Shown in pieces: positions 3,293 to 26,548 of a stretch of 26,669 nt of DNA. Source of the DNA: a virus; the IMG/VR virus record IMGVR_UViG_3300008259_000319, positions 1 to 26,669 of that record, one strand, 5' to 3'. Both the position numbers and the translations under genes were made by a program. The number at the start of each line of letters is the position of its first letter. Position 1 is the stretch's first letter. The notes below the pieces were generated by a model. It made no database searches and had not been told where the DNA came from. It worked only from the letters and a program-made list of their open reading frames with translations.

Positions 3293-5152
3293 TTAAACAA
3301 TCTCACATCCCGACGCACCACAAGCGATTTCTCCACTTAAATCGGTGTTATCCTGTAATTCAATTACTTTAGTTAAGTCAATATTAGTCAATGTTCTAAC
3401 TAATTTTTCATACTCTTCTTTTGAACAATCGGTAAAAGGTGCTTGGGTATAAGTACCTCCGTTGAAAGGCAAGACCGATAAGCCATTGTAAAATTTTCTA
3501 TTTTTCCACATCCAATCACCTACTAAGTCCCACTCATCTTCTTTAATTGAAACTGTTGCTGAAACGTTATGTGAATTTTGTCCGCCTCTATGTCCTGGTT
3601 TAATCCACTCTTGAGATACTTTTTTTACTCTTTCAAGCATTTGAAACACAGACTCGTATCTTAAAATTGACCCTTCTGGTGACATTTGTGGTATTGTAAT
3701 TACCGCGGTATCGTGTGGACGGAAATACTCATCTTCAACTAATTCTGGGTGATTAATCGCAAGATATGAATAAATCGCTTCATTTTTTCCAACTCTAATT
3801 CTTCTTAAATAGAAGTCATTATGCCAAGCGTGAATACCAGATGATGTACCTAAAACCAATGATGATGTACCAGATGGTTTAACGGTTGTTGTACGAGCAG
3901 CTTTATTAATCCCAATTAAATTTGCAACTCTTTCATTTTCTTCTTTAACGGCTTCAGCAGCTGCTTTCATATCATAACCTAATACAACACCAGAACCAAT
4001 ACCGGTCATTCCAACACCAATAAGTGCGTCTTTTTCAGTTGTTCTTTTCCACACATCTCTCAAATAATGAAAGTCAGTATATCCTGCTTGTAATGTTCCA
4101 ATGAACGCAGCACCTTTAACTCTTTTTTCAAAGTCTTCTTGTGAGTCAATATCTGAAGCATTAACCTCACATAGATTACAGAATTGGTATGGACGTAAAC
4201 CAATTTCACAACAAGGATTTGTTCCCCAATCTTTATCATTTGATAAATAAATTCCTGGTTCACCAGCCCCAGATAACTCAATTCGTTTCCAAAGACTCAT
4301 AAAATATTCTTGTGTTATTTTATGTCTTAATAGAACTGCTGAATTATTTGCACGACCTCTTTGTGGGTTTGATTCCCACCAATTTCCAGATTTACAAGAA
4401 ATCATTTCATCATCATCAGCTGAGAATAATGAGATAAGTGCTGCTCTTCTGATTCCACCCGCTAATACTGCGTCAGCAATATGACATACAATGTCGTGAG
4501 TCTCAATTGGTGTTAATTTATCACCATCGTTTTTGTTTTCCAAAACCTTTGTAATATGATGAATACAATCTTTTAATGGTTGAGGTCCTGGTGCCTTTCC
4601 TCCTGATGTTACAAGGTTTGCCCCTTTTTGTCTAATATCTGAAAAATCAAATATTGGTGTTGATGCTTTGTAACCTAAATAAGACTCCATCAATACTTTA
4701 ATAGCATCAGCCCATCCTTCAATAGAATCTCCAATAAGGTATCTTCTTGTTCTTGTTGGGTTTGGTTTTTTAATTTCTGGTAGTTTATCTACGTGATGTC
4801 TTTGTACTGAAAACCCTACTCCAGTTCCACCTAATAACAAAAACATTGTTTCTGAAAATGCGTCTGTGTGGTCTATCGGTAAATAAGCACAGTTATAAAC
4901 TCTGTTTGGTGAAATCTCAATTGGTTTACCACCAAATTGTAATGATCTCATAGATGGAAGAATTTTTTTATCGTATACCATTTTATATACTTCTTCTATC
5001 TGGTCTTTAATGTTTGGGTATTTTTTTTGGTGCATTTCTTTATTTCTTGTCACCAATTCTTCCCAAGTTTCCCTTCTATTTAGTTCAGGGACAAATTTAG
5101 CGTATTTCATATAGACTGTAATATCGCTCAATATTTTTTGTGAAATATCCAT
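3293..5152 (-). CDS. nrdJ: Class II (adenosylcobalamin-dependent) ribonucleotide reductase, monomeric type
   Basis: This 619-aa enzyme converts ribonucleotides to deoxyribonucleotides for phage DNA synthesis. The active-site layout fits the Lactobacillus leichmannii-type reductase. C88 (YNCAY) and C325 would be the redox pair. N312, C314 and E316 in NPCCE would be the radical cysteine and its partners; C325 lies 11 residues after C314, the spacing I recall for the family. P-S-G-T-S-S at 426-431 and G-I-H-A-W-H fit the phosphate-binding region, and R-A-N-N-S-A-V fits the specificity site. The C-terminal C611-x4-C616 pair matches the reducing tail of monomeric class II enzymes. No small radical subunit gene is nearby, which supports class II and dependence on host B12. 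It is shorter than the ~739-aa Lactobacillus enzyme. It starts 26 nt after the helicase C-terminal ORF. Confidence 0.92.
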   Translation of the reverse strand: MDISQKILSDITVYMKYAKFVPELNRRETWEELVTRNKEMHQKKYPNIKDQIEEVYKMVYDKKILPSMRSLQFGGKPIEISPNRVYNCAYLPIDHTDAFSETMFLLLGGTGVGFSVQRHHVDKLPEIKKPNPTRTRRYLIGDSIEGWADAIKVLMESYLGYKASTPIFDFSDIRQKGANLVTSGGKAPGPQPLKDCIHHITKVLENKNDGDKLTPIETHDIVCHIADAVLAGGIRRAALISLFSADDDEMISCKSGNWWESNPQRGRANNSAVLLRHKITQEYFMSLWKRIELSGAGEPGIYLSNDKDWGTNPCCEIGLRPYQFCNLCEVNASDIDSQEDFEKRVKGAAFIGTLQAGYTDFHYLRDVWKRTTEKDALIGVGMTGIGSGVVLGYDMKAAAEAVKEENERVANLIGINKAARTTTVKPSGTSSLVLGTSSGIHAWHNDFYLRRIRVGKNEAIYSYLAINHPELVEDEYFRPHDTAVITIPQMSPEGSILRYESVFQMLERVKKVSQEWIKPGHRGGQNSHNVSATVSIKEDEWDLVGDWMWKNRKFYNGLSVLPFNGGTYTQAPFTDCSKEEYEKLVRTLTNIDLTKVIELQDNTDLSGEIACGASGCEIV

Positions 5153-7046: not shown

Positions 7047-8063
7047 TTACTTTTTTGTTCTGTTTCTAAAATTTGTTTTTTCTTTTCTTGATAGTTTTAA
7101 AAATGGTTTTAAAAAATTCACCCAGGCATCGTCACCCTTTGGGAGAAATTTGAAGAATCCGTCGTCCATCATCATTCTTATTAGATTTCTATGTCCTCTT
7201 CCGTCTGGATCCAAAGACTCTGAATAATATAATCTAACAAATTCTTTTCCTTCTTGAGAAATGAGTGGATTAGCTAGGTCCACCAATTTTTCATTAATTG
7301 TGAAAAACTCCTCTCCAAATATTCCCTCTTTGGTTTTCCCGCTTAGGAGATTTTGTAAGGCAACATTTCCTTTTTGTTCCGAAAGTAAACTTTCTGCCTT
7401 TGTTAAAATATCGGTATATTTTAATTCAGTATCAAGTATTTCAGGAAATAATTTAAGAAATGTTTTTTCACCCAAATAAAAAATACCATCAATATTATCT
7501 GAACTATCACCAGTTAATATTTTGTAAGTTTTGATATTATAATGTGGTATTTCTGACATATCCATTTTAATACCATCACCATTTTTATAATATCGTTTTT
7601 GTTGGGGTGAATATATAGTTACCCTTTCAGAAATTAACTGTGTTAAATCCCTATCGGATGAAAATATTGTCTTGTCTTCATCTTCAGAAATTTGACAATA
7701 ATAAGCAATTAAATCGTCAGCCTCCGATTGTTCTACCTCTAATTGTCTAACAAACATTTCTTCTAGGTATTGTTTTACTCTGTTTTTTTGAGTAATAAAA
7801 GATTGTTCTTTAAAATCTTCTTCGTTTTTTTGTTTTCTATTGAGTTTGTATTTGGGATAGATAATTCTTCTTTGTGAAGAACCAGTTTCACTATCCCAAA
7901 AGACAACCACTTTGTTATAATTGTTTTCCTCTAAAAATCGTCTTAAAGTGTTTAAAAAGTACCAAGTACCACCAACGTGTTCTCCTTTATTAAAAAAGTC
8001 TCTAACACCGTGAAAACCAATTTTTAATAGATTATTTCCATCAACTAATAAAGTTTTAGTCAT
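7047..8063 (-). CDS. rnh: RNase H / 5'-3' exonuclease, T4 Rnh type
   Basis: This 338-aa nuclease removes RNA primers and 5' flaps during lagging-strand synthesis. The PIN/FEN-type metal-binding acidic residues are in place: D8 (L-V-D-G-N-N), D57 (F-W-D-S-E), E114/D116/D117 (S-E-A-D-D), D137/D139 (S-S-D-R-D-L) and D186/D189 (T-G-D-S-S-D-N-I). The last opens a helix-hairpin-helix region (G-I-F-Y-L-G-E-K-T). T4 RNase H is 305 aa. The start overlaps the methyltransferase stop by 8 nt, which suggests translational coupling. The Lys/Arg-rich C-terminus may contact DNA or gp32-like protein. Family assignment is firm. Confidence 0.92.
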   Translation of the reverse strand: MTKTLLVDGNNLLKIGFHGVRDFFNKGEHVGGTWYFLNTLRRFLEENNYNKVVVFWDSETGSSQRRIIYPKYKLNRKQKNEEDFKEQSFITQKNRVKQYLEEMFVRQLEVEQSEADDLIAYYCQISEDEDKTIFSSDRDLTQLISERVTIYSPQQKRYYKNGDGIKMDMSEIPHYNIKTYKILTGDSSDNIDGIFYLGEKTFLKLFPEILDTELKYTDILTKAESLLSEQKGNVALQNLLSGKTKEGIFGEEFFTINEKLVDLANPLISQEGKEFVRLYYSESLDPDGRGHRNLIRMMMDDGFFKFLPKGDDAWVNFLKPFLKLSRKEKTNFRNRTKK

Positions 8064-9078
8064 TAGAAGTTTCGTTTATTGGGTTTGACAATACTGGTTC
8101 TTTTTCCTGGATATAATCAGAGAAGAATTCCATAAATATCGCTTCCATTACTGGTACACAAATTGAGTTTCCGGCTAGAGATACGTGACCTTTTGTTGAT
8201 AATGATGTTGTTAATAATAAATCAATATCCTCATCACGAACACCCATAAATCTGTATCCTTCTCTTGCGGTAATTGTTCTTACTCTACCGTCTCTCGTCA
8301 TAATTTGTGGAGATCCACTAGTTGTTAGACAAGGTGAACAACCCTCAATAGAATAAATCCTTCTTGCTTGGTCGTAACTAATATCGTCTCTTCTAGCAAT
8401 TAATCTACAAATTGTATGATGTTTTGGTTGATGTAAGGTATATGGACAATCAATAAACAATGATTGATTTTCGGTGTCTTCAATAAATGTGTCCATAGGT
8501 ATTCTAGTTTTTTTGTAACTATCAACATTCATCATTTTTTGTTTCACATCATCTTTGTCACCATTTAAAACAGAAATCATAAAAACTCTTTCTCTATTTT
8601 GTGGACAACCAAAGTCAGCACCATTTAAAATTCTCCAGTACGAAGTATATCCTAATCCACGAAGAAAATAAATGTGTTTTTTGAAATTTTCATAGTGGTT
8701 TTTGGATACTAGATTTTTAACGTTTTCCATCAATAAATATTGTGGTCTATTAACCGACAAAAGTCTTTCAACGTCAAATAATAATCCACTTCTTGTACCT
8801 TCTTTAATTCCTCTTTGTATTCCAGATATTGAAATATCTTGACAAGGAAATGAATACGTTAGTAAGTCACAATTTGGAAAGTTATTTTCATCAACTTTTG
8901 TAATATCACCTAAATTTCCATAAGTTGTTGTATGTAAAACATCATAACATTCGTTTGCCTGTTTGAAGTTGTCGCAGTTTGCAACATTTTCATAATTAAC
9001 CCCAATGTATTTAAGTGCCAACTCTTGTGTTCCGTAACCGGAAAATAACGATACTACTTTTAATTTATTCTTGTTCAT
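8056..9078 (-). CDS. DNA cytosine-C5 methyltransferase
   Basis: This 340-aa enzyme transfers a methyl group from S-adenosylmethionine to C5 of cytosine in a specific sequence. Conserved motifs occur in order: motif I S-L-F-S-G-Y-G-T (10-17), motif IV S-F-P-C79-Q-D with the catalytic cysteine, motif VI M-E118-N-V, motif VIII Q-N-R-E-R-V-F (160-166), and motif X-like G-N-S-I near the C-terminus. The target recognition region lies around 190-270. No restriction endonuclease is visible next to it, so it probably shields phage DNA from host restriction or acts in regulation. It overlaps the uvsX end by 14 nt and the RNase H start by 8 nt, so it is built into the replication operon rather than carried as a separate cassette. 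Confidence 0.95.
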   Translation of the reverse strand: MNKNKLKVVSLFSGYGTQELALKYIGVNYENVANCDNFKQANECYDVLHTTTYGNLGDITKVDENNFPNCDLLTYSFPCQDISISGIQRGIKEGTRSGLLFDVERLLSVNRPQYLLMENVKNLVSKNHYENFKKHIYFLRGLGYTSYWRILNGADFGCPQNRERVFMISVLNGDKDDVKQKMMNVDSYKKTRIPMDTFIEDTENQSLFIDCPYTLHQPKHHTICRLIARRDDISYDQARRIYSIEGCSPCLTTSGSPQIMTRDGRVRTITAREGYRFMGVRDEDIDLLLTTSLSTKGHVSLAGNSICVPVMEAIFMEFFSDYIQEKEPVLSNPINETSND

Positions 9079-11935: not shown

Positions 11936-14900
11936 TTATAAAGATTTAAATAAATTTATTGATTCTTTAATTTTTGTTTTAATTTTACTGATGTCATTAG
12001 GTTGCATTTCATCATATACTTTTGGTGATTTGTTGGTTGGGAAATCTAAAATGTATGATTTTGTTATAGCGTCAATAATATTATTGTCTAAATCAACACC
12101 AGTTAAAGTATTATCAATTAAAGACTCAATACCACCAACTTTACCAGAGTATTTATTAACCATAAAATCTAAAAATTTTTCTAAAGATGAAAATGTTGCC
12201 ATAGGTACTTTTAAATTTTTTCCTTGGTCAACACAAAAATAATTTAAATCAAAGTAAGTTGCTGCACCACCCCAATCAACATTTAATGGTATTGCAGAAT
12301 AATTAAAATTAAGTGTTTTAAATTGTCCAGAGCTGTCGCTTCCAATATAAATTGTTGAAAATAAAAAAGTACTTAATATGATTTTCTGATTTTCTGGTAA
12401 TGATAATTCTTTAATTTTTTTAATTAAAAGATTATACATTGTTTTATAATTACTAGTAGTTGTTGTTGGTGTAACGTTTGTATAGTTTTGATATGATCTT
12501 ATTAGGTTTGTTGAGCAAGTTAGTGTTGTTACATCACCAATACCTTCGGTCGCATAGCTTACAGAACTATTTTGTTCTTTTAATATGTTGTCTGGTGTTT
12601 CACTTAATCTACTGTCTTCTTCTTGTATTTTTTGTTTTAAAGATGTTAATATTTTACTATTCAATGATTGTAAATACTTATCAAGTGTTGGGATACTATA
12701 AAAAGGTTGTCTTTGACCTTCAAAAGACGTTTCAAAACCAGAATCATTAATTCTATGTGTTACTTTTAAAATCATATATGGCCCACTAAATAATGGTACA
12801 TATCTCAAGTTAAAATACATCATTGGTTGTATCATAGCATTACCTAACATATCAACACTACATTTGTAACTTCTATTTCTATATAAATTATACAATGAAA
12901 CACTTTGAGTTCCACCCCCTCTGTTTCTATTTAAATTTGCCATTTGATTTAACACCTCTAAAGATTCGGCTGTGGGGTCTCCTGGTTCTTGTGACACATC
13001 AAATTTAGTAAATATTTGTTGATTTTGTGGTCCCATATCTATATTAAACCCAACAACTTTATTTGACCTATCCCAATCTTGTTTACCGTCTTGGTCTTCC
13101 ACTAAAGGACAATCGCTTGATCTTCTCAAATCAAAAGCATCATCTCTAAATCTATAATCTATATTTTCATTTAATGCCAAATGTTCACTTGGTTTGTTTG
13201 CAAACAAACACAAAAACTTTGAGCTTGTTTCTCTATAATCTAAACTTGTAAACGTACCAAATAATGAATTTGCAAATTCTAACGACCCTTCTGGTGAAGG
13301 AGACGCGTTTTTACTTACGTCTTGTACATTATAAAAGTTTGCATATGCCGGTAAGGTAAAAAATGTAAAATTATTATTTGTTAATATTGTTGATATAATA
13401 TCTAACATTTTGTTTTTATAAGAACCATAATCAATTGTGTCTTTAACTTTAAACACGTCAGCATAAATTTTTTGACCAACGTCTCTACTTGCTCTATCAT
13501 AAAGTAAAACGTCTTCAAAAAGGGTTTTAGTTTTATAGTCGCCACCAGCTATCCAAGTGTCGTTTAAACCTTTAAACATATCATATAACTCATATCTAGT
13601 TTGTTCACCATTTAAGTCAGCTTTAACTTTTTTTGCTTCTTTTTTTATTGTAACTTTTGGTATGTTTTTTCTTAATGTTGTTAGTTCCAGATTCAACACG
13701 GTATCAATATAATTTTCACCTTTAGTTAGGTATACAGACATTAAATTTAAAAACTTTTCTCTATTAAGAGATACGTCTAACAATTTTTGTGTTGCATAAA
13801 TTTTTATTATTGGGGCAAATCTTATAACATTGTTTTCTTCAAACTCAACATTCATATCAATAAAAAAGTCAGTAATGTAAGAACCTAAATTTGAGTACTG
13901 TAATGACGTAATATCTGAAAACCCAACATATGTTTCTAGCGCTTTCCAAGTTTGTGGGTATAACGCTTTTGAGTTTGCAAGAGTTATTGTCCCCGATGGT
14001 GTTGGTAAAGCGTTTGGTGAATTTGTCTTATAGTAATTATATGTCAATGGATCTTGAATAAACTCATTTGAGAATGTATAAAATAGTCTTCTATCAAATG
14101 AAGATGGGTTTCCGTATTTAATTATTGTCTCATATTTCATAAACAACCCTAAATAATTATTAAATTGTGAAATTTGCTTATTAGTGATTTCACTAATTAT
14201 AACACTTGGGACATCCCCAATTGGTTTTTCCACTTTCATAATTGTTCTCATAAGTCCTTGGAAATTTTTATACTTATTTTTTGTTTCCAATTCTTCTTGG
14301 TTTTTTGATTCTAGGTCATATACCGATTTTGAGAAGTTCAAAAATTCTTTTTCTAGTATGTCAAGGGCTTTTTTGTCAAAAGCACTAAACATATCATCTA
14401 TTTTTGAGTAACTTGCATCCGAACCATTTATTGAGAAATTTTGTTGGATTGAGAGATTATTAAATATTTCTTTAAGATATGAGTCTGGTTTCGGGATTTC
14501 TACTTTATCGTTATCAAAGTACCCATAGTTTGGGGCTTTCCAAAAGTTCCTCACCGAACCATTATATAGTGCAGAATTATTTTTAACCTCTTTTGTCATT
14601 GTTCCACCTAAATTAAAACATTCGTCATTCACTTGATTTAACGAACTACCAAATGATGGCATAGGATATACTTGTCCGTCAGGGGTTGTTGAAAAGCAAG
14701 ACCAGGGTTTCAAAATTAATGACCTATTTGGTTGTAAAGGATTAAAACCGTTAAATTTAGATATCACACTACTTAAAGAATAGTTTAGATATAAAGACCC
14801 GTCATCTATTGATAATTGTATGTCTTGACTTGAGTAATCAACATTTTCAACATTTGATATTGTAAAATTTGTTGGTCCAACATTTGTTGTGTATGTTTCT

Positions 14901-17900
14901 GAAATCACATAACTTCCAGTTCCGCCTGTTGTACCAGATATTTGAGAAACAACTGTCGTGTTTAAAAGTATATTTGGACCTACGATTACACTTCCAGGTA
15001 TTATTGCTGGTGCTGTTATTGATAAAATCTCAAGAGTGTTTCCAGAAATTTTACATTGTCCTGTAACTTCATATGTTGAGTCAAATACTCTTGTTCCTTG
15101 ATAAAATACGTTAAAATCGTCAATTGTTTTTGGGTAAAACCCTGGATTCATTATAGTTCTAGACAACGACCCAACCACTAAATCGTCTTGTAAAACAAAT
15201 TCATATGGTGCCCCATCAATAGTTAAATTATACGTTTTTGTTATTGCACTTGTTGTTGGGTCAAAATTTCCAACATAATCAAAATCTTTCCAAACATCAT
15301 CTAAAATGTCTTTACCCGTTTCAACCCAGGTTTTATATCTATGCCAAATTGATCCGTATTTCAAAACCCAAGCGTATGGGACTTTGTGAATTGCACCATA
15401 TTTTTTTAAAGTTGATAACACATAATCTAACTCTGTCACACTATTGTTGTTATTATATTTTTTGTATCTTTCTTTTGTTGTTGCTAACGGTAAACTATTT
15501 AAAAACAAAAACGCAGCTTCTTTATAGGGATACAAGTTTGATGGGTTATATCTAAACTCAAAAACACCTTTTTGTATTGCGTTTACAAAATATGGCGTGT
15601 TTAACATTGAGGTTGTTTGAGTTGCCGTTAATTGATTTGTGTAGTTGACATAATTTAAATTTCCTTCAGTTACATATTGGTTCTCAAATTTTCTATTGTT
15701 ATAGAATATTTTGAGATTTGTTATGCTGAGAGGTCTAAACATTGTTGCTTCCTCATAGTTAAAATTTGTAATTGGTTTTTTTTCTGTTTGTGAGTTTTCT
15801 TCAAAATTTGTGATTACCTTATTTGTTTCATTATAATTTAAAACATTTGCTGTAACAAAAGCATCTATTGGTGTTTTTATTACCGACCCATTAGACATAT
15901 TTTTTTTAATCCAGTTTAATGATGTAAGGGGATATATGTCAGAAATGTCATAATTTTCCATTACGACATTTTTACTTATGTATTTAGTTATCTGCTCTGT
16001 GTTTTCAATAGAAACACTTGGTTGACTTTTTGGGTTCTCAACAACTGTGTAACTTAAAATTTCAAAAGATGTTTTTATATCATTTTTAATATAAGATGTG
16101 TTAAATTCACCTCTTATGTAGTTTTGCCAAGAAGGTCCTTGTCCTTGATTTGATATATCCCGTAAATAAGAAACAAAATTTGATAAATCAAATTCTTTTA
16201 GTTTATAAGATAGATATGGATTATCATCACCTAAAGCGTCAATAATATCAACCCTTTCCATTTCGGCAACATAATATGGTATGTTATATTGATAAACACC
16301 ATCTCTATTAAATTTTTCATAAAAAGAGTTAATGATTAATCTTTCATACATTTCATAAAAAAACTTAACCTCTTCTGAATTTGTAAACACTTCGTTTCCT
16401 ATTGGAAACTCTATCGCATTAAAGCTTAGCCTTCTAGGGTTAATTTGTGAGTTGGCAATTGTTTCTGGTTCTGGTATTTGAGTCTCCCTAAGCGTATATC
16501 CTCTAATAAATTCTTCAACAAATTCAACCTCTGGCCAAACTTCGGGACTATAGGCGTTTAAAGACTGTGCAACAGAATCGTCACCGGGGTAAACCAATTC
16601 AAATTTTTCACCATCTTTTTTATTGTCGTTTTTGTTTATAACTTGTGGCCAAGGATAAACAGGAGTTTGGTTTTGTGGTAAATCTTTAACATCAACACTA
16701 CTTCCACCGCTATTTGCGAATATCGCAGTTTTTCTAAATCTATCGTCTCTAACTCCCCAGGCTTTTGTGTGTACATCATCCATCAAACGAAGAAATGCTT
16801 CTCCTTGGGCAAAAAACACGGCTAAAACATTTCTCATTGTTGGTTCAAACCCAATTCCACCATCGGCAATACTTCCAGAAATTTTATTAGCTAAATCTTT
16901 TGTTAACTTTTCTTCAATAGATTGTTTTTGTTTTAAAAAATTTTCTTTTATTTTATCTATTTTCGCAATAAAAGAGTCTATTCCTTCATAGAAAAAAACA
17001 TCTTTTCCTTGTAGTTCTTTATTAATTTGATTTTTAAAATCTGTGGTTACCGTAGAGTTTCCAATTGGGTATTCTTTATTGTACCTTTGAAAATAGGTTT
17101 TAGACAAATCTAAATCATTACTAGATTTAACATCACTAATAAACGTATTATTATTTTGTGTTGACGAATAGTTAATGTCTACTGGTACTTTATTTTCAGA
17201 ATTGTTCCCTAGGGTTTTATTGTCATTTAATAATTTATTGTATTTTAGAACTAACCCATAAAGTTTTGTTTTAGCGTCATTTACATTTGTTATTTGTTTT
17301 TGAAAAATATAATTTGAGTTACCGTTTGTATCAACAAATGGATTTTTAATATCAAGGTAAGTGTTTGTCCAAGAGTCGGAATATGTTGCAACTTCGGACC
17401 TATACAATTCCAAGTTTTTTTCAAACTCATCTATATCATTTAAAAGATTTAAATTTGTTTTTTTAAAACTTTCATAAATTGATTTTAGAAATAAATTTAA
17501 TCTACGTTGTAATTGTTGGATTGTAAGTTCTGGAAAATTTTCATCAATAAGACCTTTAGCTTTATATTCAGAATAAAGTTCTTTCATTTTTTGGTAACCA
17601 TTACTAGTAAAACCCCTATCAAGTGCTACAGATGAATTTTGATTGGTTTTTGATTCACTTTTTGTTTCAATAATTGACCGATACATAAACGGTACGGCTA
17701 ACATAGCACCCCAAGGTACATATGATAAGATTGAATACTTGTATGTATAGAATTTTAATTGTACTCTAAAATTTCCACTATTTGAATCATAGCTACTACT
17801 AAACGTATATAACATTAGGGGTAATCTAACAGCCTTCCCCAAATAACCTTTAATTGTTAAATAAAATATTGGGTATGGTAATTGAAAAAAGGCGGCGTAA

Positions 17901-18439
17901 GGTGAGTTGTTTCCTCCCTCAAATAGAGCTCTTCCTTTAACGTCTTCAAGTGTCATATCAATAACCGGTAAAAAATCTGTTCCGTATGTTATTGTGATGT
18001 CAGTAATACCGAGTAATCCATTGTCAACAGCACCCGGTTGACCGTCTGAAGTTAAAGTTTGATTAACATAAAAATCATCACTTTTATTTTTTGCGTATTT
18101 AAATTTACTATTAACTTGATTAACTCCTTTTCCTTCTAATGAATTTTTACCCGTAATTTCATCAACATATCCATCTTCTAGAAATGTTTTAAAACCTGGA
18201 TTTAAAAAATTAATCTTACCAACCGAAATTGTTTTAAGTGATTCGTCTAGTGGTACACCAACAGCTAATTTTGTTCTTGGTACTACATTACATTCTAGGT
18301 TTGCATAAATAACCAAATCTTCGTGATTGATAAGTCTTTCACTTACTTTACCGTCATTATCAATTATTTTGTTTGGGTCTATAACGGTTATGTTTTGGTA
18401 GTCAAATTCAACTAATATGTTCTCACCGTTATTTACCAT
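11936..18439 (-). CDS. Giant baseplate hub protein (2167 aa)
   Basis: This 2167-aa structural protein has hub-type segments near both ends. Residues ~140-245 (D-I-T-I-T-Y-G-T-D-F-L-P-V-I-D-M, then G-Y-L-G-K-A-V-R-L-P-L-M-L and K-F-Y-T-Y-K-Y) look like a tube-like hub domain. Residues ~1858-1930 (S-V-D-M-L-G-N, P-M-M-Y-F-N-L-R, F-S-G-P-Y-M-I-L-K-V-T-H, F-E-T-S-F-E-G-Q-R-Q) match the closing domain of gp27/gpD-type hubs, which ends in a 'Y-x-V-x-x-V-x-H ... R' pattern. The long middle is unassigned, apart from a Gly/Thr-rich beta segment at ~1125-1195. T4 gp27 is 391 aa, so this is greatly enlarged. Its start overlaps the gp53-like gene by 11 nt. It would sit at the tail tip around the spike. 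The hub role is likely; most of the sequence is unexplained. Confidence 0.72.
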   Translation of the reverse strand: MVNNGENILVEFDYQNITVIDPNKIIDNDGKVSERLINHEDLVIYANLECNVVPRTKLAVGVPLDESLKTISVGKINFLNPGFKTFLEDGYVDEITGKNSLEGKGVNQVNSKFKYAKNKSDDFYVNQTLTSDGQPGAVDNGLLGITDITITYGTDFLPVIDMTLEDVKGRALFEGGNNSPYAAFFQLPYPIFYLTIKGYLGKAVRLPLMLYTFSSSYDSNSGNFRVQLKFYTYKYSILSYVPWGAMLAVPFMYRSIIETKSESKTNQNSSVALDRGFTSNGYQKMKELYSEYKAKGLIDENFPELTIQQLQRRLNLFLKSIYESFKKTNLNLLNDIDEFEKNLELYRSEVATYSDSWTNTYLDIKNPFVDTNGNSNYIFQKQITNVNDAKTKLYGLVLKYNKLLNDNKTLGNNSENKVPVDINYSSTQNNNTFISDVKSSNDLDLSKTYFQRYNKEYPIGNSTVTTDFKNQINKELQGKDVFFYEGIDSFIAKIDKIKENFLKQKQSIEEKLTKDLANKISGSIADGGIGFEPTMRNVLAVFFAQGEAFLRLMDDVHTKAWGVRDDRFRKTAIFANSGGSSVDVKDLPQNQTPVYPWPQVINKNDNKKDGEKFELVYPGDDSVAQSLNAYSPEVWPEVEFVEEFIRGYTLRETQIPEPETIANSQINPRRLSFNAIEFPIGNEVFTNSEEVKFFYEMYERLIINSFYEKFNRDGVYQYNIPYYVAEMERVDIIDALGDDNPYLSYKLKEFDLSNFVSYLRDISNQGQGPSWQNYIRGEFNTSYIKNDIKTSFEILSYTVVENPKSQPSVSIENTEQITKYISKNVVMENYDISDIYPLTSLNWIKKNMSNGSVIKTPIDAFVTANVLNYNETNKVITNFEENSQTEKKPITNFNYEEATMFRPLSITNLKIFYNNRKFENQYVTEGNLNYVNYTNQLTATQTTSMLNTPYFVNAIQKGVFEFRYNPSNLYPYKEAAFLFLNSLPLATTKERYKKYNNNNSVTELDYVLSTLKKYGAIHKVPYAWVLKYGSIWHRYKTWVETGKDILDDVWKDFDYVGNFDPTTSAITKTYNLTIDGAPYEFVLQDDLVVGSLSRTIMNPGFYPKTIDDFNVFYQGTRVFDSTYEVTGQCKISGNTLEILSITAPAIIPGSVIVGPNILLNTTVVSQISGTTGGTGSYVISETYTTNVGPTNFTISNVENVDYSSQDIQLSIDDGSLYLNYSLSSVISKFNGFNPLQPNRSLILKPWSCFSTTPDGQVYPMPSFGSSLNQVNDECFNLGGTMTKEVKNNSALYNGSVRNFWKAPNYGYFDNDKVEIPKPDSYLKEIFNNLSIQQNFSINGSDASYSKIDDMFSAFDKKALDILEKEFLNFSKSVYDLESKNQEELETKNKYKNFQGLMRTIMKVEKPIGDVPSVIISEITNKQISQFNNYLGLFMKYETIIKYGNPSSFDRRLFYTFSNEFIQDPLTYNYYKTNSPNALPTPSGTITLANSKALYPQTWKALETYVGFSDITSLQYSNLGSYITDFFIDMNVEFEENNVIRFAPIIKIYATQKLLDVSLNREKFLNLMSVYLTKGENYIDTVLNLELTTLRKNIPKVTIKKEAKKVKADLNGEQTRYELYDMFKGLNDTWIAGGDYKTKTLFEDVLLYDRASRDVGQKIYADVFKVKDTIDYGSYKNKMLDIISTILTNNNFTFFTLPAYANFYNVQDVSKNASPSPEGSLEFANSLFGTFTSLDYRETSSKFLCLFANKPSEHLALNENIDYRFRDDAFDLRRSSDCPLVEDQDGKQDWDRSNKVVGFNIDMGPQNQQIFTKFDVSQEPGDPTAESLEVLNQMANLNRNRGGGTQSVSLYNLYRNRSYKCSVDMLGNAMIQPMMYFNLRYVPLFSGPYMILKVTHRINDSGFETSFEGQRQPFYSIPTLDKYLQSLNSKILTSLKQKIQEEDSRLSETPDNILKEQNSSVSYATEGIGDVTTLTCSTNLIRSYQNYTNVTPTTTTSNYKTMYNLLIKKIKELSLPENQKIILSTFLFSTIYIGSDSSGQFKTLNFNYSAIPLNVDWGGAATYFDLNYFCVDQGKNLKVPMATFSSLEKFLDFMVNKYSGKVGGIESLIDNTLTGVDLDNNIIDAITKSYILDFPTNKSPKVYDEMQPNDISKIKTKIKESINLFKSL

Positions 18440-18753: not shown

Positions 18754-21700
18754 TTAATTAAATGTTACTTTACCGTTAAATGTTTTTTTATCGTTATCTA
18801 CATTTTGGTTAGAATAAAGATTTTTTATTATTTTTTTATTATCGTTATAGTTTCCTATTTTGTCTGTGGTATATCCAACTTTTTTATCTTTAAAATACTC
18901 AATACTTTCTTGGCCGACTGTTAATTTATAATCCGAATATTTTTTATATCCTTCTCCGTTTTCTAATCTTGAGTACAATTCTAATTCTAGATTGTGATCG
19001 TTTTTACATCTGGATTGGAATTCATCACAATATTTTATAATGTTTGCTTCTAAATTTGGGACTTTTTTTACTTCTTCCGTAATTAAGGATTTTACAAACG
19101 TTTGATACAAATTATTGTCTAGTAAAATATTACACATACTCATATAAAATCTTCTGTCTGATTTGGCAGTTACTTGTAATTTAGAACTAAAATCAGATTG
19201 ATAATAGGTTTCTTTATCAACATAAAAAGCAGTTGATAGTATTGAGTTAGCGGTATCTGCTAGAAAAATAAGGAAGTTTTTTAAGTCTGGACCCGTTTTT
19301 TCTATATAAGTTTGATTTATTGTTGATATAAGATTATTTGTTGGGTCAGCAGTCAATGAATATATTTTTAAATCTCCAGTTGTTAATTTTACACCATCAA
19401 CAGAATTACAAACGGCGTCCATTTTTCTAAGCGTGTAATTCAAAATTTGTTCTGTATCTACTAAACTATTTATTTGTTGTTGTACTAAATTATTTAATTC
19501 AATTTCGTTTGTTTTGATATTTTTTGTAAAAGTGTTTTTTAAATCTCTAATAACAGCATCTGGAATGTTTGGTGTTTGCCCAGAAATATTTATAAGTATT
19601 ATATTTTCATTGTTTTTAACATCTTTAGTTGTGTTATCAACTAGGTTTGAAATCTTTTTAGCTATGTCATTTGGTTTACCATATAATTTAGTTTCAACTT
19701 TTGTTCCGTATTCCAATATCACACCATCAGAATAATTTCTTGTGTTAAATACTAATTGTGATACGCCCCAATTTGTAACTTGGGTTATTGATTTTGATTG
19801 GTTTACAACAGAAGTAAAATAATTTTTTGAGTTGTCTTGTAATTCGTTCATCAAATTATAATAATTTATTTCACCAGTTTCTAATCCATTTGTGGTATCT
19901 AAATTAGAGTTTTCAATAACCCCAATTGGTGTTAAACCCTTTTGAGACTGTTGATTTGACACATCTTTATTTGTAACCGTAGGTCCTTGATTACCAACTA
20001 ATATTTTTTCTAATTGTAAGTCTCTATCGTCACTTTCTTTTTTATCTGTTGATATTGACCTTTCGTCGTAAATTTCAGTATTACCATAGTAGTTAAATGA
20101 CAGGGCATTTTGTAGTTGTTTTATTGGTCCGGCTAAACCTTGTCCACCAATAAAATCAAAACTTAAAGTAATTTTGGCTATCATAGGTTGTACACCAATT
20201 CCTTCTGGATTCAAATCATATACAAGTGGATCAAAACCAATTTGTAAATTATTAGGAATAATTTTAGTATTATAAAAATCACCAATTCTCAAAACCAATA
20301 CTGGTGGTGTACCAAACGATGTGTTTAGTGCGTCGTTATATTTTAATTGATTGTCATTCCCAATTACTGGTATTGTTTGTCCAGGTCTCATACATTGATT
20401 CAAAAATGTCAATCGTGAATTTAAACCTTCAGGTGTTGTTGAGTGAAAAGCGGGGTTAAAGTATTTTATTTTATCTTTCAATGATTGGTAAATCATTGGG
20501 TTTGATTCTTTAATAACTTCAAAATAATCACATTCTGAAAATAAATTTCTAAGCACTTTTTTTGATATTCCCTCTTTTAATTTTTTAATTGGGTCTGGTT
20601 TTTTTACTGGTTTTTTTGGTTGTACAATAACAACATCTTCTTCAATAATTACTGGGTCTATAATTGGTGCTGGTTTTTTAATTTTTTTTATTGTTGCTCC
20701 TTGAATTACAACGGTTCTACAGGCGTATACTGGTAGTGTGTCATTTTTACAACTATTGGTACAGTCAACTTCGTTACCATTTTTTAATATAACTTTTGTA
20801 CCATAAGCTAAAGTTTCTTTTGATGGGAATGTTAAAGTGCCATTATCAAAATATGTTTTAAATGTTTCCGTATCACTAATTCTTTGACTTAAAATCCACT
20901 TAATTACAGAGTCATATCTCCTACTTCCCAAAGCATCATTATATGCCTTATCACTACAAGAGTTTGTAATACCTAAAAAATCTAAAGAAACTGTTCCACC
21001 TTTTGATAGAGCTTCACCCCAAACTTCCATTTTTTCTTTGAACTCTATAGACCCTTTAACCACGTCTTCAGCAAAAAAAGTTTTCAAACTTGGTTTTGCA
21101 TAAATAACGCCATTGTTTGTAAATGGTATTTGTGGGTCATTTACATCTCCAGTATATCTACCTTTCAAACTAATGATTTGGTCATAGTATGTTGGGAAAT
21201 ACGGTTCATCAGCAGTTAAATCGGTATTTCTATCGGTTGTACTTCCGTCTTTATCTTCATATTTTGGTTGTGTACTAGCAAAATACAAACTTATATTATA
21301 TTTTTCTTCTACAACATCTTCTTGATCAATTTCGGAATTATCATCAATATTTAAATTAACGTTTTGATTTTGGTCTTTTCTTTCTTTTTGTTTTGAAATT
21401 TCATTTAAAACTTGATTAACTTCTTCCGCTGTTGTGCGAGCATCATTCAATATTTCCTGATAAGTATAAAGTTCACTAATTGGTATTTGATTATACTTTG
21501 CCGCTAAATCATATAAGTCATACTTCACACATCCAGCAAAAAAAGAATCAACAATTGAGTTTATTTCTTGGTCACTTCTATTTGCTAATTGTTTTTCTAT
21601 TATAGTATTAAGAGCTGATGGGTGGTCAACAACAATTCTCCAACTAATAGACCCAGACCTAGACGAATTTTGATATGTATAAATAGGTTCTGGTCTTCCT

Positions 21701-23736
21701 AGGAATTTAGTTGGATTCCAAGATGCTTTTGTGTCCTCACTAAATGTTAAATCATATGGTGGAAACCACATAATTCTACCACCATTTGGTCCTCTTTCAC
21801 ATTCTGGTAAATCTTGTACGGTAAATCCAGGTTTGTCTGAAGTTCGCCAAGCAAGATTCTCCAATGAGAACATATATTTTTTTACTTTGCCGTCTCTAAT
21901 ATTTGTTGAGCCCTCGCCTCTCATTGGTGCGATATTCAAATTATATGTGTTGTCTAATACCGAATTATTAAATTTACGACCAGATGTTGTTATACCATCT
22001 GTTTTTTGTAAGTCGGCATAGGTATAATAAGGTGTGTCTTTTTGAAAGATTCTACAATATTCTCTACCCACTTCAACACCACCAATACCAATTGTTTGAC
22101 TATCCGTGGTTGAGTCGTAATAAGCAACAACTTGTGATCCTTTGGTTAATTCTTTATATCCATCATTAAAGACTTTTGATACTTGGTTTATAGCATTTCC
22201 TACGTGTTTTAGTCTTGCTTGTCCTTGTACTTTATCAGCGGCATCAATAATTCTTTGTGTGTCATCAAGTATTGATCCGTTTTTTAATTCAAAATCTATT
22301 GACCTATTTTGACTGTATTGGCTTGCAATCTCATTGAACCCGTTGTCTTGTTTTGCAATGTCTCCACCTGGTTTTACTTTAAACCCGGCGTTTCCTTGGT
22401 ATTTTGGTGAAGTCCAAATAAACTCACCCATAATACCGCCACCGTCAGTAATTGACTTTCCTTTTAAACCAAAATTAATTTTTGCGTCATTTCCCTCGTA
22501 TAAAATACCCAATTCAGATGGTCCATAAACAATTGTATTTTGTTGTTTACCAAAACTATTTACAGCAACTTGATTTGGTGGTGAAGTAATAAAAGATGGT
22601 TCTGAAAACGCACTTCCAATATAATACTTACCAGTTATTTGTGGGTCGTTGTCTAAAAAATTACTAATGGAATTTATTAAATTTTGACTAACGCTACCTC
22701 TATTATATGATGGTCTATATGTGTTGTAATCCAAACTATTAAATAAAACAGATTGTTGTGCTTTTCCTGTGTTTGAGATAAATAATTCAGATGGGTTTCT
22801 AAATAAATTAAGTACTGGTCCTAAATTTCCAGTAATATTATTAATATTTTCTAATGCCGTTTCGGCAACTGGTGATTGTATTGGACCAAATCCATCAAAA
22901 TAGTCACCAGGAATTGGTGATGATGGGTAATAATTTTCTTGTAATCTATTTGTAAATTGTTGATTATTTGCGTTTGTATCTTCACCAACTGTAATTTTCC
23001 AATCTCTATTTGATAGAGGTTGATTATTAAAGTTTGTAAATAGATTTGAGAAAGGACTATTTAATGTGTTTAAATTCCCAAAACCTAATGGTATTGATGG
23101 TCCTTGGGAATTTAGAAATATTGTTTCATATGCAATTCTTTCTTCAAATGCCGCTTTAAGGTTGGTCGCGGCAATTTTAGCTAAAAATGTATCCTGTGAT
23201 AATGTTCCGTCTGTCCCACTTGGGTTTTGACTTGATAATATCTGATAAGGTTTATATAAAGACGTAACAAATGGTTCGTCATATGATTGGAAATACTGAT
23301 TAGAAAGTTGTATATCTGTAATTGTAAATAAATCATTAAACCCACCTTCTGGTCCGTATTTGTTTTGGATATATGCCGCGTCAATAAAAAATTCATTAAC
23401 TAAATCTATTGATTGAAAGTTTGGGTCTGTCGGGTCATAGGGTCCTTGATTTGAATCAACAGGTAATGGTTGCCCTGGCACATTGTATTTTCCTATGTAA
23501 CCACCTTCTGGACCATATTCGTTAAGTGGGTATAACCCATTCGCAAATTGATTTGTACTAATATAATTATTTGGTGAATCAACTACCGTTAAATCTTGTA
23601 ATGGTGAAATTTCATAAGTTACGTTTCCAGCCGGAGGACTATAAGCCCCTGGTATATTATAGGGTGCTAAATTCCTAGCTATTAAAGAGTTCCTAAATGA
23701 TGAAGTAGAAACAAATGATAATGAACTTTCAGACAT
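18754..23736 (-). CDS. Giant baseplate/tail-tube adaptor protein with OmpA-like domain (1660 aa)
   Basis: This 1660-aa structural protein has several visible parts. Near the N-terminus there are two Y-G-P-E-G-G motifs (74-79, 127-132). Around 655-712, L-T-F-S-E-D-T-K-A-S-W-N-P and G-R-P-E-P-I-Y-T-Y fit a tube-like domain of the gp48/gp54 or CIS-tube kind. A second such domain is likely at ~1095-1215 (N-N-L-Q-I-G-F-D-P-L, then I-A-K-I-T-L-S-F-D-F-I-G-G). Between them, ~813-990 resembles an OmpA-C domain (G-I-T-N, A-Y-N-D-A-L, S-R-R-Y-D-S-V). It is followed by a Lys/Pro-rich linker at ~1016-1060. The protein lies between tape measure and gp53-like genes, where tube-initiator or hub-adaptor proteins belong. 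A TATAAATA element precedes the ATG. Exact identity is uncertain. Confidence 0.65.
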   Translation of the reverse strand: MSESSLSFVSTSSFRNSLIARNLAPYNIPGAYSPPAGNVTYEISPLQDLTVVDSPNNYISTNQFANGLYPLNEYGPEGGYIGKYNVPGQPLPVDSNQGPYDPTDPNFQSIDLVNEFFIDAAYIQNKYGPEGGFNDLFTITDIQLSNQYFQSYDEPFVTSLYKPYQILSSQNPSGTDGTLSQDTFLAKIAATNLKAAFEERIAYETIFLNSQGPSIPLGFGNLNTLNSPFSNLFTNFNNQPLSNRDWKITVGEDTNANNQQFTNRLQENYYPSSPIPGDYFDGFGPIQSPVAETALENINNITGNLGPVLNLFRNPSELFISNTGKAQQSVLFNSLDYNTYRPSYNRGSVSQNLINSISNFLDNDPQITGKYYIGSAFSEPSFITSPPNQVAVNSFGKQQNTIVYGPSELGILYEGNDAKINFGLKGKSITDGGGIMGEFIWTSPKYQGNAGFKVKPGGDIAKQDNGFNEIASQYSQNRSIDFELKNGSILDDTQRIIDAADKVQGQARLKHVGNAINQVSKVFNDGYKELTKGSQVVAYYDSTTDSQTIGIGGVEVGREYCRIFQKDTPYYTYADLQKTDGITTSGRKFNNSVLDNTYNLNIAPMRGEGSTNIRDGKVKKYMFSLENLAWRTSDKPGFTVQDLPECERGPNGGRIMWFPPYDLTFSEDTKASWNPTKFLGRPEPIYTYQNSSRSGSISWRIVVDHPSALNTIIEKQLANRSDQEINSIVDSFFAGCVKYDLYDLAAKYNQIPISELYTYQEILNDARTTAEEVNQVLNEISKQKERKDQNQNVNLNIDDNSEIDQEDVVEEKYNISLYFASTQPKYEDKDGSTTDRNTDLTADEPYFPTYYDQIISLKGRYTGDVNDPQIPFTNNGVIYAKPSLKTFFAEDVVKGSIEFKEKMEVWGEALSKGGTVSLDFLGITNSCSDKAYNDALGSRRYDSVIKWILSQRISDTETFKTYFDNGTLTFPSKETLAYGTKVILKNGNEVDCTNSCKNDTLPVYACRTVVIQGATIKKIKKPAPIIDPVIIEEDVVIVQPKKPVKKPDPIKKLKEGISKKVLRNLFSECDYFEVIKESNPMIYQSLKDKIKYFNPAFHSTTPEGLNSRLTFLNQCMRPGQTIPVIGNDNQLKYNDALNTSFGTPPVLVLRIGDFYNTKIIPNNLQIGFDPLVYDLNPEGIGVQPMIAKITLSFDFIGGQGLAGPIKQLQNALSFNYYGNTEIYDERSISTDKKESDDRDLQLEKILVGNQGPTVTNKDVSNQQSQKGLTPIGVIENSNLDTTNGLETGEINYYNLMNELQDNSKNYFTSVVNQSKSITQVTNWGVSQLVFNTRNYSDGVILEYGTKVETKLYGKPNDIAKKISNLVDNTTKDVKNNENIILINISGQTPNIPDAVIRDLKNTFTKNIKTNEIELNNLVQQQINSLVDTEQILNYTLRKMDAVCNSVDGVKLTTGDLKIYSLTADPTNNLISTINQTYIEKTGPDLKNFLIFLADTANSILSTAFYVDKETYYQSDFSSKLQVTAKSDRRFYMSMCNILLDNNLYQTFVKSLITEEVKKVPNLEANIIKYCDEFQSRCKNDHNLELELYSRLENGEGYKKYSDYKLTVGQESIEYFKDKKVGYTTDKIGNYNDNKKIIKNLYSNQNVDNDKKTFNGKVTFN

Positions 23737-23778: not shown

Positions 23779-25614
23779 TTAACCTTCAGTACCTTTTAAT
23801 ATATTATTTGGTTCAATAACCTTTTCAAAAACTTTTTTCTTGTTTTTTTCAAACCCCACTTGAAATTCGGTTGTTTCGGCTATTTTAATAATAGTATCCT
23901 CTGTCGCTTTTTTAATTGTCGGTTCTAATGACGCAACGTTATCAAAATTAACATTAATATCCATAACAGATTTAATTGTTCCTGAATGCTCAACGTTTGA
24001 TTTCATTTCATTTTGTGAGTACAAATCTTTGTAAAGATTATTATTTGTTAAAGGTGTTGTATATTGTTTATAAGTTTCTTTTCCGGCTTTAATAAAAAAC
24101 TTTCCAAAATCAACAAGTGGTCCACTACCAATCCCCATAACCATCCCAGTCATTTGTTTCGCTAAATCTTTTAATACTTGTGCAACAGATTTTGTGTTAG
24201 TTAATAAATCCAAAGATTGTCTATATGTTTCTGAATTACGAGCTGGTTCAACCCCTGCTGGTGATTTTTCAAATTCAGTTGTCAACATTCTTAAATTTTT
24301 TACATAAGTACCTGAAAGTATATTACTAGACGCCGTACCGTATCTTTGTGCCATTATAAATTCATTAATTCTTGTGTTTAATTTTCTTAATTCGTCTAAT
24401 TGATCTCTAGCAATATCTGACATTGTTGCGCCTTCAGATAATTGTTGTTTTTGTAATCTTTCTATTTGCTGTTGGGTTAATTCACTTACAGCTCTAGTTT
24501 CATATTCACCGGTTAAATTTCCTTGTGCGTCAACTTGAGCAACCCTAACTTCGGCAATTCCATTCTCATTCATTTGAGCCATTGTTGCAATAAGATTTCT
24601 GGTTTCCTCGTTAATTGGGATATTAGGCATTCTTATTTGTTGGAGTTTAGCATCAAAATTTGCAGCATTAATTGCCATTTTTTGTAGTTCACCGTTGTTA
24701 TAACCCATAGCAGCACCAATCTCATTCAATCTTCTTTTTGCCCCTGGTAAAATTTCAAATGATTTTGATTCTTTATTAAATCTGACAAATTCCTTTGTCA
24801 TATTAACCATTTGATTTTGTAATTCTGTTGGGTCATTTTGAGATAAATCCATTAGTCTTAAAGGGTCTAATAAATCACTTGTTGTTACTCCTAGTCTTTG
24901 GAGTGCTGCTGCCATATTTATAGCACCTTCTGGATTAAAAACTTTATCTACAACACCAAAAACACCATCCATAGAAATTCCAAGTCTAGAGGCTTGTGCT
25001 GCCATTTTTGCAAGACCTTTAATACCGCCTTCAAAATTATATAAATTCATTTTGTCTAGGTTAGATACTACGGCGTCTGAAACGGCTTTTACTGTGACAC
25101 CGGCTTGTTGTGCAATCCTAGTAACTTCCCTCATTTTAGGACCAATACCCGCAACACTAACACCAACGTCTCTAAAATTTACAGCCAATGTTTTTTGTTC
25201 AACCCCAGTTACTTTGGCTGTTGCCGCAAATTCAGTAAGAGCCTCTTTTCCAATAAAAAGATTTGTATTTAAGGCATCATATAATCCGGACATCGCTTTT
25301 CCAGCGTCACCAACTTCTAAACCAATACCAACAAATTCTGGTATTGCATCAGCTACCGCAACTGTTAGTTCTCTTGTTCTTTGACTTGAAACACCTAAAG
25401 ATCTGGCCAACCTAAAGGCTTCTTCGTTTAATGATTTTGTCGCGTTAATATACGTGCTGGGGCTGAAGTTCTTTATTTGACTCTGAACCTCTTTTATAAT
25501 TCCAAGTGGTGACGAAAAAATAGTCTCTAAACTCTTACTAATATCAAACTTTTGTTCATCGGATATACCAATTTGTTGTTCTTCGGTTTTTTCTACTATG
25601 GTGCCCATAAACAT
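23779..25614 (-). CDS. Tape-measure-like tail protein
   Basis: This 611-aa, largely helical protein is rich in Ala, Gln and Lys. Its middle region (about 90-260) has alternating Gly/Ala helices such as L-E-V-G-D-A-G-K-A-M-S-G-L-Y-D-A-L, F-A-A-T-A-K-V-T-G-V and A-Q-A-S-R-L-G-I-S, as seen in phage tape-measure proteins. A Gly-rich hydrophobic stretch (K-Q-M-T-G-M-V-M-G-I-G-S-G-P-L-V) near 495-510 could be the membrane-active part. It follows directly after a tail-chaperone-like gene with an overlapping frame, which is the usual place for the tape-measure gene. At 611 aa it would imply a tail of roughly 90 nm by the usual 1.5 Å per residue rule. The start could also be the Met at residue 3. Confidence 0.65.
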   Translation of the reverse strand: MFMGTIVEKTEEQQIGISDEQKFDISKSLETIFSSPLGIIKEVQSQIKNFSPSTYINATKSLNEEAFRLARSLGVSSQRTRELTVAVADAIPEFVGIGLEVGDAGKAMSGLYDALNTNLFIGKEALTEFAATAKVTGVEQKTLAVNFRDVGVSVAGIGPKMREVTRIAQQAGVTVKAVSDAVVSNLDKMNLYNFEGGIKGLAKMAAQASRLGISMDGVFGVVDKVFNPEGAINMAAALQRLGVTTSDLLDPLRLMDLSQNDPTELQNQMVNMTKEFVRFNKESKSFEILPGAKRRLNEIGAAMGYNNGELQKMAINAANFDAKLQQIRMPNIPINEETRNLIATMAQMNENGIAEVRVAQVDAQGNLTGEYETRAVSELTQQQIERLQKQQLSEGATMSDIARDQLDELRKLNTRINEFIMAQRYGTASSNILSGTYVKNLRMLTTEFEKSPAGVEPARNSETYRQSLDLLTNTKSVAQVLKDLAKQMTGMVMGIGSGPLVDFGKFFIKAGKETYKQYTTPLTNNNLYKDLYSQNEMKSNVEHSGTIKSVMDINVNFDNVASLEPTIKKATEDTIIKIAETTEFQVGFEKNKKKVFEKVIEPNNILKGTEG

Positions 25615-25644: not shown

Positions 25645-25815
25645 TTATCGTTTTTTATTTTCTTCAATAATCTTATCAATTAAAAAACGTCTGATATATG
25701 TGGGTAATGTTAGAAACTCACTATATTGTGTTCGGAGGATTTTTGCTAGAATATAAAATTCGTCAAGTAAATATTTCCTATGTTCAGAAGAAAGGCCGAA
25801 AAAATTCCACCCCAA
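25645..25815 (-). CDS. +1-frame extension (T-like) of the tail chaperone, or small TTG-start gene
   Basis: This coding stretch overlaps the last ~30 nt of the gp26-like gene in the +1 frame. The frame opens after a stop at 25827-25825 and runs to TAA 25647-25645. It contains no ATG near its beginning; the only plausible separate start is TTG 25815. Past the TTTTTTCGG site it encodes 50 residues, G-L-S-S-E-H-R-K-Y-L then D-E-F-Y-I-L-A-K and T-L-P-T-Y-I-R-R-F-L-I-D-K. The L-P-x-x-x-R-R-F pattern resembles the T part of G/GT tail chaperones. A +1 shift would give a ~300-aa fusion. It ends 30 nt before the tape-measure start. I read this frame directly from the sequence; the frameshift is inferred. 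Confidence 0.65.
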   Translation of the reverse strand: MGWNFFGLSSEHRKYLLDEFYILAKILRTQYSEFLTLPTYIRRFLIDKIIEENKKR

Positions 25816-26548
25816 AAGCGATACTTACGTTCACTTTTTCTCCAGACGGGGCTATTACAATTTTAGATAAATCTAATCTAGGTTCATTATCATTTAAGAC
25901 TTTTTTGATGTGTTTTGAATCCATAATTGGCATTTGTTCAATAAACTTTGCTATTTCCCCACCATCTCTACTACCATTTAGTTCAACAATATTTTTTTGT
26001 AATCTTAATGTTGCAGATGGTGCCATTCTTCCCGCCGGATAATTTGCAATAAGTTCATCAAGTTCCATTTGTTCTTTTAGATTGAGAAGTTTTAACTTAA
26101 CATCGGCACCACTTCTAGGTAGTGTCGTTGTAAATAAACCTTCTTCATTTGGTTCATTTGGTGCTTGAACAATGTTTAGTTCGTCCAATAATATAGTTGT
26201 AGAAAATGGTTTTTCTGTTTTTGGGTCAATAACCTCAATTAGGTATTCTGGTCCAAAAGATGTGTTTCTTAAAAAGATTAATAAGGCTTCCAAGTCACCA
26301 TCAAGTAATTCTTCAGGTCTTAAATCCGGTTCGTATAATTTGTTTCTAAGCAAGGGAAGTACAATAGACTCCTTAACAGATTTTGAAAAATTTAGATTAG
26401 CTAGTATGTTTTCGTCGTTAGCCGTTAAATAACCAACTTTGACACTTTTCTTTTTTGACTTATAGAACTTACCCTTTGACGGTAACATAACAACGTCGTG
26501 TGGTAAATTAAAATTCATTTGACCAATCTCATTTACATTTGCATCCAT
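25784..26548 (-). CDS. 26: gp26-like baseplate/tail assembly chaperone
   Basis: This 254-aa protein matches the T4 base-plate (gp26) family as I know it from T4-like phages. It has V-M-L-P-S-K-G-K-F-Y (20-29), L-T-A-N-D-E-N-I-L-A-N (41-51), then P-x-x-L-L-D-G-D-L-E-A-L-L-I-F-L-R and F-G-P-E-Y-L-I-E-V. The second half is helical with N-L-K-E-Q-M-E-L-D-E-L. In T4, gp26 belongs to the hub assembly pathway. Here the gene lies immediately upstream of the tape measure and its 3' end overlaps another coding frame, the layout of tail assembly chaperones. It ends R-P-F-F at a TGA just after the presumed slip site TTT-TTT-CGG. The start at 26548 is preceded by an A-rich tract without Shine-Dalgarno sequence. 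Confidence 0.8.
   Translation of the reverse strand: MDANVNEIGQMNFNLPHDVVMLPSKGKFYKSKKKSVKVGYLTANDENILANLNFSKSVKESIVLPLLRNKLYEPDLRPEELLDGDLEALLIFLRNTSFGPEYLIEVIDPKTEKPFSTTILLDELNIVQAPNEPNEEGLFTTTLPRSGADVKLKLLNLKEQMELDELIANYPAGRMAPSATLRLQKNIVELNGSRDGGEIAKFIEQMPIMDSKHIKKVLNDNEPRLDLSKIVIAPSGEKVNVSIAFGVEFFRPFF

Follow-up and report, generated by a model that had tools for sequence, protein, structure and literature searches.

Near one end of a 26,669-nucleotide viral sequence (IMG/VR record IMGVR_UViG_3300008259_000319, positions 1 to 26,669; the window), a tail assembly chaperone gene overlaps a second open frame in the +1 phase, which raises the question of whether ribosomes pass from one frame into the other. 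All window features given here lie on the minus strand. The 0-frame open reading frame (ORF; 26548 to 25784) encodes a 254-amino-acid (aa) protein, here called TAC-N for the short tail assembly chaperone, and its 3′ end reads GAA TTT TTT CGG CCT TTC TTC TGA. The first-pass annotation had this frame ending just after GAA-TTT-TTT-CGG; that string is present, but the TGA stop (25784 to 25786) lies three codons further on. The putative slip site, TTT TTT (25799 to 25804), comprises the E-site codon (25804 to 25802) and the P-site codon (25801 to 25799), followed by CGG in the A site (25796 to 25798). In the +1 reading, the P-site TTT at 25801 to 25799 re-pairs on TTC at 25800 to 25798, exactly where the annotation had placed both codons. 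Among relatives, the 0-frame stop lies 3 to 6 codons from the A site and is therefore neither part of the shift site nor a pause signal.

The +1 frame is open from 5′ of the slip site down to 25645, and the portion after the slip, TAC-C, consists of 50 codons and a stop (25645 to 25797). No ATG occurs in this frame at the locus, as had been claimed, and the sole candidate start is a TTG at 25815. The next gene (23779 to 25614) encodes a 611-aa protein that only synteny marks as a candidate tape measure protein. In Flavobacterium phage immuto, a tape measure protein is annotated at the equivalent position; a BLASTP comparison of the 611-aa protein with it gave no significant match.

The 0-frame protein matched PF12322 with 29.3 bits (cutoff, 24.5) and phrog_150 with an E value of 7.8e−10, and the 254-aa gene product is a member of the T4 gp26/gp51 tail assembly chaperone family. 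Family membership and synteny together suggest that it acts as a chaperone on the tape measure protein. Structure prediction for the 300-aa fusion of the two frames gave a mean pLDDT of 79, and the C-terminal extension was predicted to form a three-helix segment (residues 254 to 271, 275 to 280, and 283 to 299). The predicted fold resembles SP-15 and T4-like hub proteins in a structure comparison against a viral library, and a PDB structure search with it returned no match.

Relatives were collected by tblastn and peptide-pattern searches, which yielded 77 phage contigs at first and several hundred later. They were divided into the clade of the window (A1) and a group of remoter relatives (A2) that takes in the cultured Microcystis phage Mel-JY01 and Flavobacterium phage immuto. 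Some members of the full A1 set (n = 178) were retrieved with a search pattern in which GGGG and the slip site are fixed. Sequence was sufficient at 278 distinct loci, and 272 of these have a +1 extension that is open and overlaps the end of the 0 frame; without the loci retrieved by the slip-site pattern, the figure is 217 of 222. These loci are kin, near-copies raise the totals, and the counts are not independent. The extension is likewise in the +1 frame in Rhodothermus phage RM378, Bacillus phage SP-15, and Streptococcus phage GXN1. For A1 pairs that were 3 to 25% divergent, the +1 reading of the extension gave a pN/pS of 0.197, and the two remaining frames gave 0.88 and 1.75. By this measure, the extension is under protein-level selection in the +1 frame only. 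The alignment of related phages upheld the proposed conservation of the slip site and the +1 frame, and the layout occurs far more often than chance would allow. The likelihood that it reflects faulty sequencing or assembly, or gene decay, is negligible: such an origin fits single odd loci only, e.g., L134, and the same layout is repeated in hundreds of contigs and in the cultured phages Mel-JY01, immuto, RM378, SP-15, and GXN1.

The five exceptions among the 222 loci are L134, with an early stop; L092 and L096, in which the −1 frame has a start of its own; and L105 and L249, in which the extension is in the −1 frame. L289 is a further exception within the pattern-selected loci. The arrangements that the first-pass annotation had named as evidence against a frameshift, one continuous frame or an independent start in relatives, were thus not found generally, but a separate start or a −1 frame does occur in L092, L096, L105, and L249. 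In L092 (from 3190 onward) and L096 (from 3187 onward), the extension ORF has an ATG immediately past the 0-frame stop, and frameshifting may have been lost here inside the +1 branch. The N-terminal part of the proteins in L105 (LR756511, a 595-kb phage) and L249 groups with or resembles those of +1 phages; the shift direction may have been reversed in these phages, or an indel may have moved the frame.

L092 and L096 lend some substance to the idea that the extension is translated as a gene in its own right, from an independent or a coupled start, as do the +1-frame TTG at 25815 and the cyanophage records that annotate a gp51 whose start falls after the shift site. We consider this idea very improbable. 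In 46 distinct loci, the +1 frame contains no ATG, GTG, or TTG; in L018, L049, and L076, a stop follows the TTG before the slip site is reached; and a separate gene has no need for fixed slip codons. The stop in these three loci is a +1-frame TAG upstream of the slip site, which means that the shift must fall in the TTTTTTCGN region.

The codons at the site are fixed to a degree that the remainder of these genes does not share. Among the 123 A1 loci obtained without slip-site selection, the P-site codon was TTT in all and the A-site codon was CGN in all (CGG in 73, CGT in 26, CGC in 23, and CGA in 1), while the E-site codon was TTT in 121 and TTC in 2. All 123 carry the P-site codon, A-site codon, phase, and overlap of the UUU_CGN +1 motif. 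Elsewhere in these A1 chaperone genes, 82% of Phe codons are TTT, only about 10% of Arg codons are CGN, and CGG and CGC account for 0.4% and 0.2%. No other in-frame TTT-CGN was found within the gene, versus 5.8 expected if kinship is ignored, and the slip site is the sole in-frame TTT-CGN among the annotated genes of the window. CGG was expected to be rare in this genome, and it makes up 4 of 8,050 window codons; its decoding is probably slow. In A2, the A-site codon after TTT is nearly always TGG. These comparative data strongly support the proposal that tRNA-Phe leaves TTT for TTC while the rare codon CGG occupies the A site.

The E-site codon is less constrained. At least three lineages of A1 and several of A2 have TTC there with the extension intact, and changes to TTC, CTT, or GCT occur in several lineages that retain the extension. 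Retention of the extension with TTC at the E site fits only a +1 movement of the P-site tRNA. A Mu-like −2 frameshift would reach the same frame with one extra Phe, and the T6 tract does permit tRNA-Phe to re-pair two bases back. With TTC-TTT, the −2 codon becomes TCT, which does not pair with the Phe anticodon, and the extension is kept there nonetheless, so that we give this route hardly any weight.

The E-site changes also break the T run, which argues against slippage by RNA polymerase. Under that explanation, the polymerase would drop one U in T6 with help from a nascent hairpin, and ribosomes would read the edited mRNA without shifting to make an identical protein. A C follows the T6 tract, and about 10 nt separate the end of the run from the edge of a hairpin upstream, an arrangement suited to polymerase pausing. 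A tract of six T residues is short for slippage by the polymerase, TTC-TTT interrupts it in the lineages named above with the extension and slip codon intact, the fixation of CGN is left without explanation, and a scan near the slip site revealed no terminator-like site. Transcriptional slippage is therefore quite improbable. Together, the breaks in the T run and the loci without a +1-frame start codon point to programmed +1 frameshifting on UUU_CGN.

When synonymous conservation was profiled, three features stood out: a Gly codon GGG, a second Gly codon, GGA, located 30 nt 5′ of it, and the slip codons. The GGG was found at its site in 123 of 123 loci versus a background of 8.9%. Both Gly codons fall within a conserved RNA hairpin (25809 to 25852) that consists of a 6-bp GC stem, a 9-nt 5′ bulge, a 9-bp upper stem, and a 5-nt loop. 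The outer stem (helix 1) pairs GCCCCG (25847 to 25852) with TGGGGT (25809 to 25814), the latter being the G-rich element that the first-pass annotation had singled out. The bulge, TCTGGAGAA (25838 to 25846), is near-invariant, with the GGA in 121 of 123 loci. In the upper stem (helix 2; 5′ arm at 25829 to 25837 and 3′ arm at 25815 to 25823), the sequence varies and pairing is kept.

With the A site as position 0, RNAalifold returned the hairpin at −54 to −11 with −8.9 kcal/mol, versus −0.06 ± 0.22 kcal/mol for column shuffles. The bulged structure was 89% paired over 82 distinct sequences, none of them selected by the slip site. In the same sequences, 109 cells were changed on both sides of a pair, versus 46.6 ± 6.7 in shuffled data and 13 to 54 in slid controls, and helix 2 had both sides changed at 7 of 9 pairs. 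The GCCCC/GGGG outer stem is nearly without variation, so the covariation evidence rests on the upper stem. Against a null of resampled synonymous codons, the hairpin region had a mean z of −2.7, compared to −0.2 to −0.5 for control windows, and a covariance model of the hairpin scored 79.7 bits. These comparisons support a hairpin conserved in A1 with compensatory changes. In almost all A1 folds, the last paired base is at −11 to −9, i.e., 5 to 7 nt before the P-site codon, which places a stable hairpin immediately ahead of the shift site. A2 has a weaker structure excess at the equivalent place just upstream (mean z of about −1.2), and ten −1 loci showed no structure excess upstream of the site. 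We found no conserved downstream structure in A1 or A2, and an Rfam search of the window gave no match.

The bulge TCNGGAGAA has GGA where GGT is usual, and its near-invariance is not accounted for by coding or by hairpin pairing. A pairing of its GGAGAAA with UUUCUUC on the 3′ side of the slip site was about 90% paired without covariation and was set aside.

GGGGTGG had been read in the first-pass annotation as an internal Shine-Dalgarno (SD) sequence like that of prfB; it is better read as the 3′ arm of the covarying hairpin. A version in which the +1 shift is real, with GGGG acting as an internal SD and the hairpin secondary, is unlikely. GGGG(TG) is able to pair with the anti-SD, and the GGG codon is fixed in all 123 loci. 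SD pairing does not require the covariation of the upper stem, however, and the spacing from GGGG to the slip codon is 8 nt, compared to 3 nt from the internal SD to the slip codon in prfB. Furthermore, SD-like motifs precede 0 of 18 genes in the window and only 16 of 555 genes in the clade. The site has neither an SD 3 nt away nor a stop codon in the A site, which is CGG, as found in prfB.

Rarity of SD-like motifs is typical of Bacteroidota-type initiation, and their absence ahead of all 18 window genes suggests a Bacteroidota-like host with SD-independent initiation; a host search among bacterial genomes found no relative. Given genes poor in SD motifs and the stimulation of +1 shifts by hairpins (PMC6321510), we hypothesize that the hairpin may be an intramolecular substitute for the SD duplex. 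In A2, hairpin strength did not correlate with SD use; the structure excess there does not track the lack of SD motifs and leaves the substitution idea unsupported in that set.

Selection on both frames, fixed slip codons, and a hairpin with compensatory changes are supported by the sequence comparisons. On this basis, it is very probable that programmed +1 frameshifting on TTT-TTT-CGG yields two chaperones, with an upstream hairpin probably pushing the ribosome forward. Most ribosomes would read to the TGA and produce TAC-N of 254 aa. A minority would arrive at TTT-TTT-CGG with the rare and presumably slow CGG in the A site, and peptidyl-tRNA-Phe on the second TTT would move one base forward onto TTC. 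Reading would then continue in the +1 frame to give TAC-NC of 300 aa with the added helical C-terminal segment. The hairpin, refolding behind the ribosome, would push it forward much as the SD duplex does in prfB, but from within the mRNA. That cells carry out the shift, and with what efficiency, we infer from sequence; stimulation by the hairpin is proposed by analogy. An upstream refolding hairpin attenuates −1 and stimulates +1 frameshifting on 70S ribosomes, with about 60% of the effect of an internal SD (PMC6321510). The hairpin in that system juxtaposes the E site, whereas the hairpin here lies about 2 to 4 nt from the E-site codon.

Elsewhere, the window encodes a gp25-like baseplate wedge protein (1797 to 2258), a B12-type ribonucleotide reductase-like protein (3293 to 5152), and a C5 cytosine DNA methylase (8056 to 9078). 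Two very large ORFs in the tail region (11936 to 18439 and 18754 to 23736) encode proteins of 2,167 and 1,660 aa with no family match.

Frameshifted tail assembly chaperones of T4-like phages were reportedly described by Vladimirov, Gautam and Davidson in 2022 (Virology 566:9-15). That T4-like phages make two chaperone forms by frameshifting or from separate genes is already stated in PMC12846349 and PMC10885494, and the earlier remark that a frameshift would be unusual for a gp26-like gene does not hold. Judged against those papers, chaperone frameshifting is known, and the novelty lies in the +1 shift, in its UUU_CGN site, and in a 5′ hairpin of natural origin. T4 gp26 (TAC-N) and gp51 (TAC-NC) share the PF12322/phrog_150 family and represent short and C-terminally extended forms. 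In T4, however, they are two separate phrog_150 genes, of which gp26 stops at the FF position and gp51 runs on past it, while a single gene with a probable frameshift is found here; accordingly, T4 has two phrog_150 loci per genome and the +1 phages examined have one, the window being a fragment. Relatives among cyanophages (P-SSM2 and others) and Vibrio, Desulfovibrio, Rhizobium, and Ackermann-type phages have the extension in the −1 frame, at or near T_TTT_TTC, in contrast to the +1 frame here. The annotated starts of cyanophage gp51 in P-SSM2 (L125, 780 to 1091) and in L412 to L414 fall past the shift site, and this gp51 looks less like a gene in its own right than like a −1 continuation of gp26. 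In a tree of the N-terminal part, the +1 and −1 branches stand apart with three state changes overall (SH-aLRT support only; the deep branches are long), T4 is on the −1 side, and L105, the lone −1 huge phage, is on the +1 side.

We lean toward a broader reading in which a natural bulged 5′ hairpin stimulates UUU_CGN +1 frameshifting throughout a large T4-like group, while the other branch shifts −1 at a near-identical T6C. If this is true, a one-base move in the phase of the tract, plus upstream structure, would be enough to reverse shift direction in evolution. Few clear natural +1 sites besides prfB are found in bacterial systems. Natural mutations across the hundreds of sequences allow the contributions of the three codons (E, P, and A site) to be told apart from one another and from that of the upstream structure, and a sister branch that shifts the opposite way makes the determinants of shift direction directly testable. 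For annotation, two frames now listed as separate hypothetical proteins can be joined in Mel-JY01, immuto, SP-15, and RM378.

Like lambda G/GT, this locus probably encodes a short form and a frameshift-extended form ahead of the tape measure gene (PMC5009743), and its extension in the other frame is open and selected across relatives. Lambda shifts −1 and Mu −2, unlike the +1 shift here, and a +1 chaperone shift was called very likely for haloarchaeal virus HSTV-2 (PMC5009743). The UUU_CGN motif and phase are identical in influenza A PA-X and plant amalgaviruses, but those are sites of eukaryotic RNA viruses read by 80S ribosomes, for which the excerpted text of PMC5052127 reports no conserved 5′ hairpin; the likeness is convergent, not homologous. 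The proposed mechanism resembles prfB in the +1 shift of a P-site tRNA, a slow A site, and an upstream duplex, and it differs in that the duplex is inside the mRNA, a sense codon occupies the A site, and the shift does not depend on a stop codon. Huang, Cho and Chang (2018; PMC6321510) reported that a hairpin adjoining the shift site stimulates +1 frameshifting on 70S ribosomes; their hairpins were laboratory reporters, whereas the hairpin described here is natural and carries compensatory changes.
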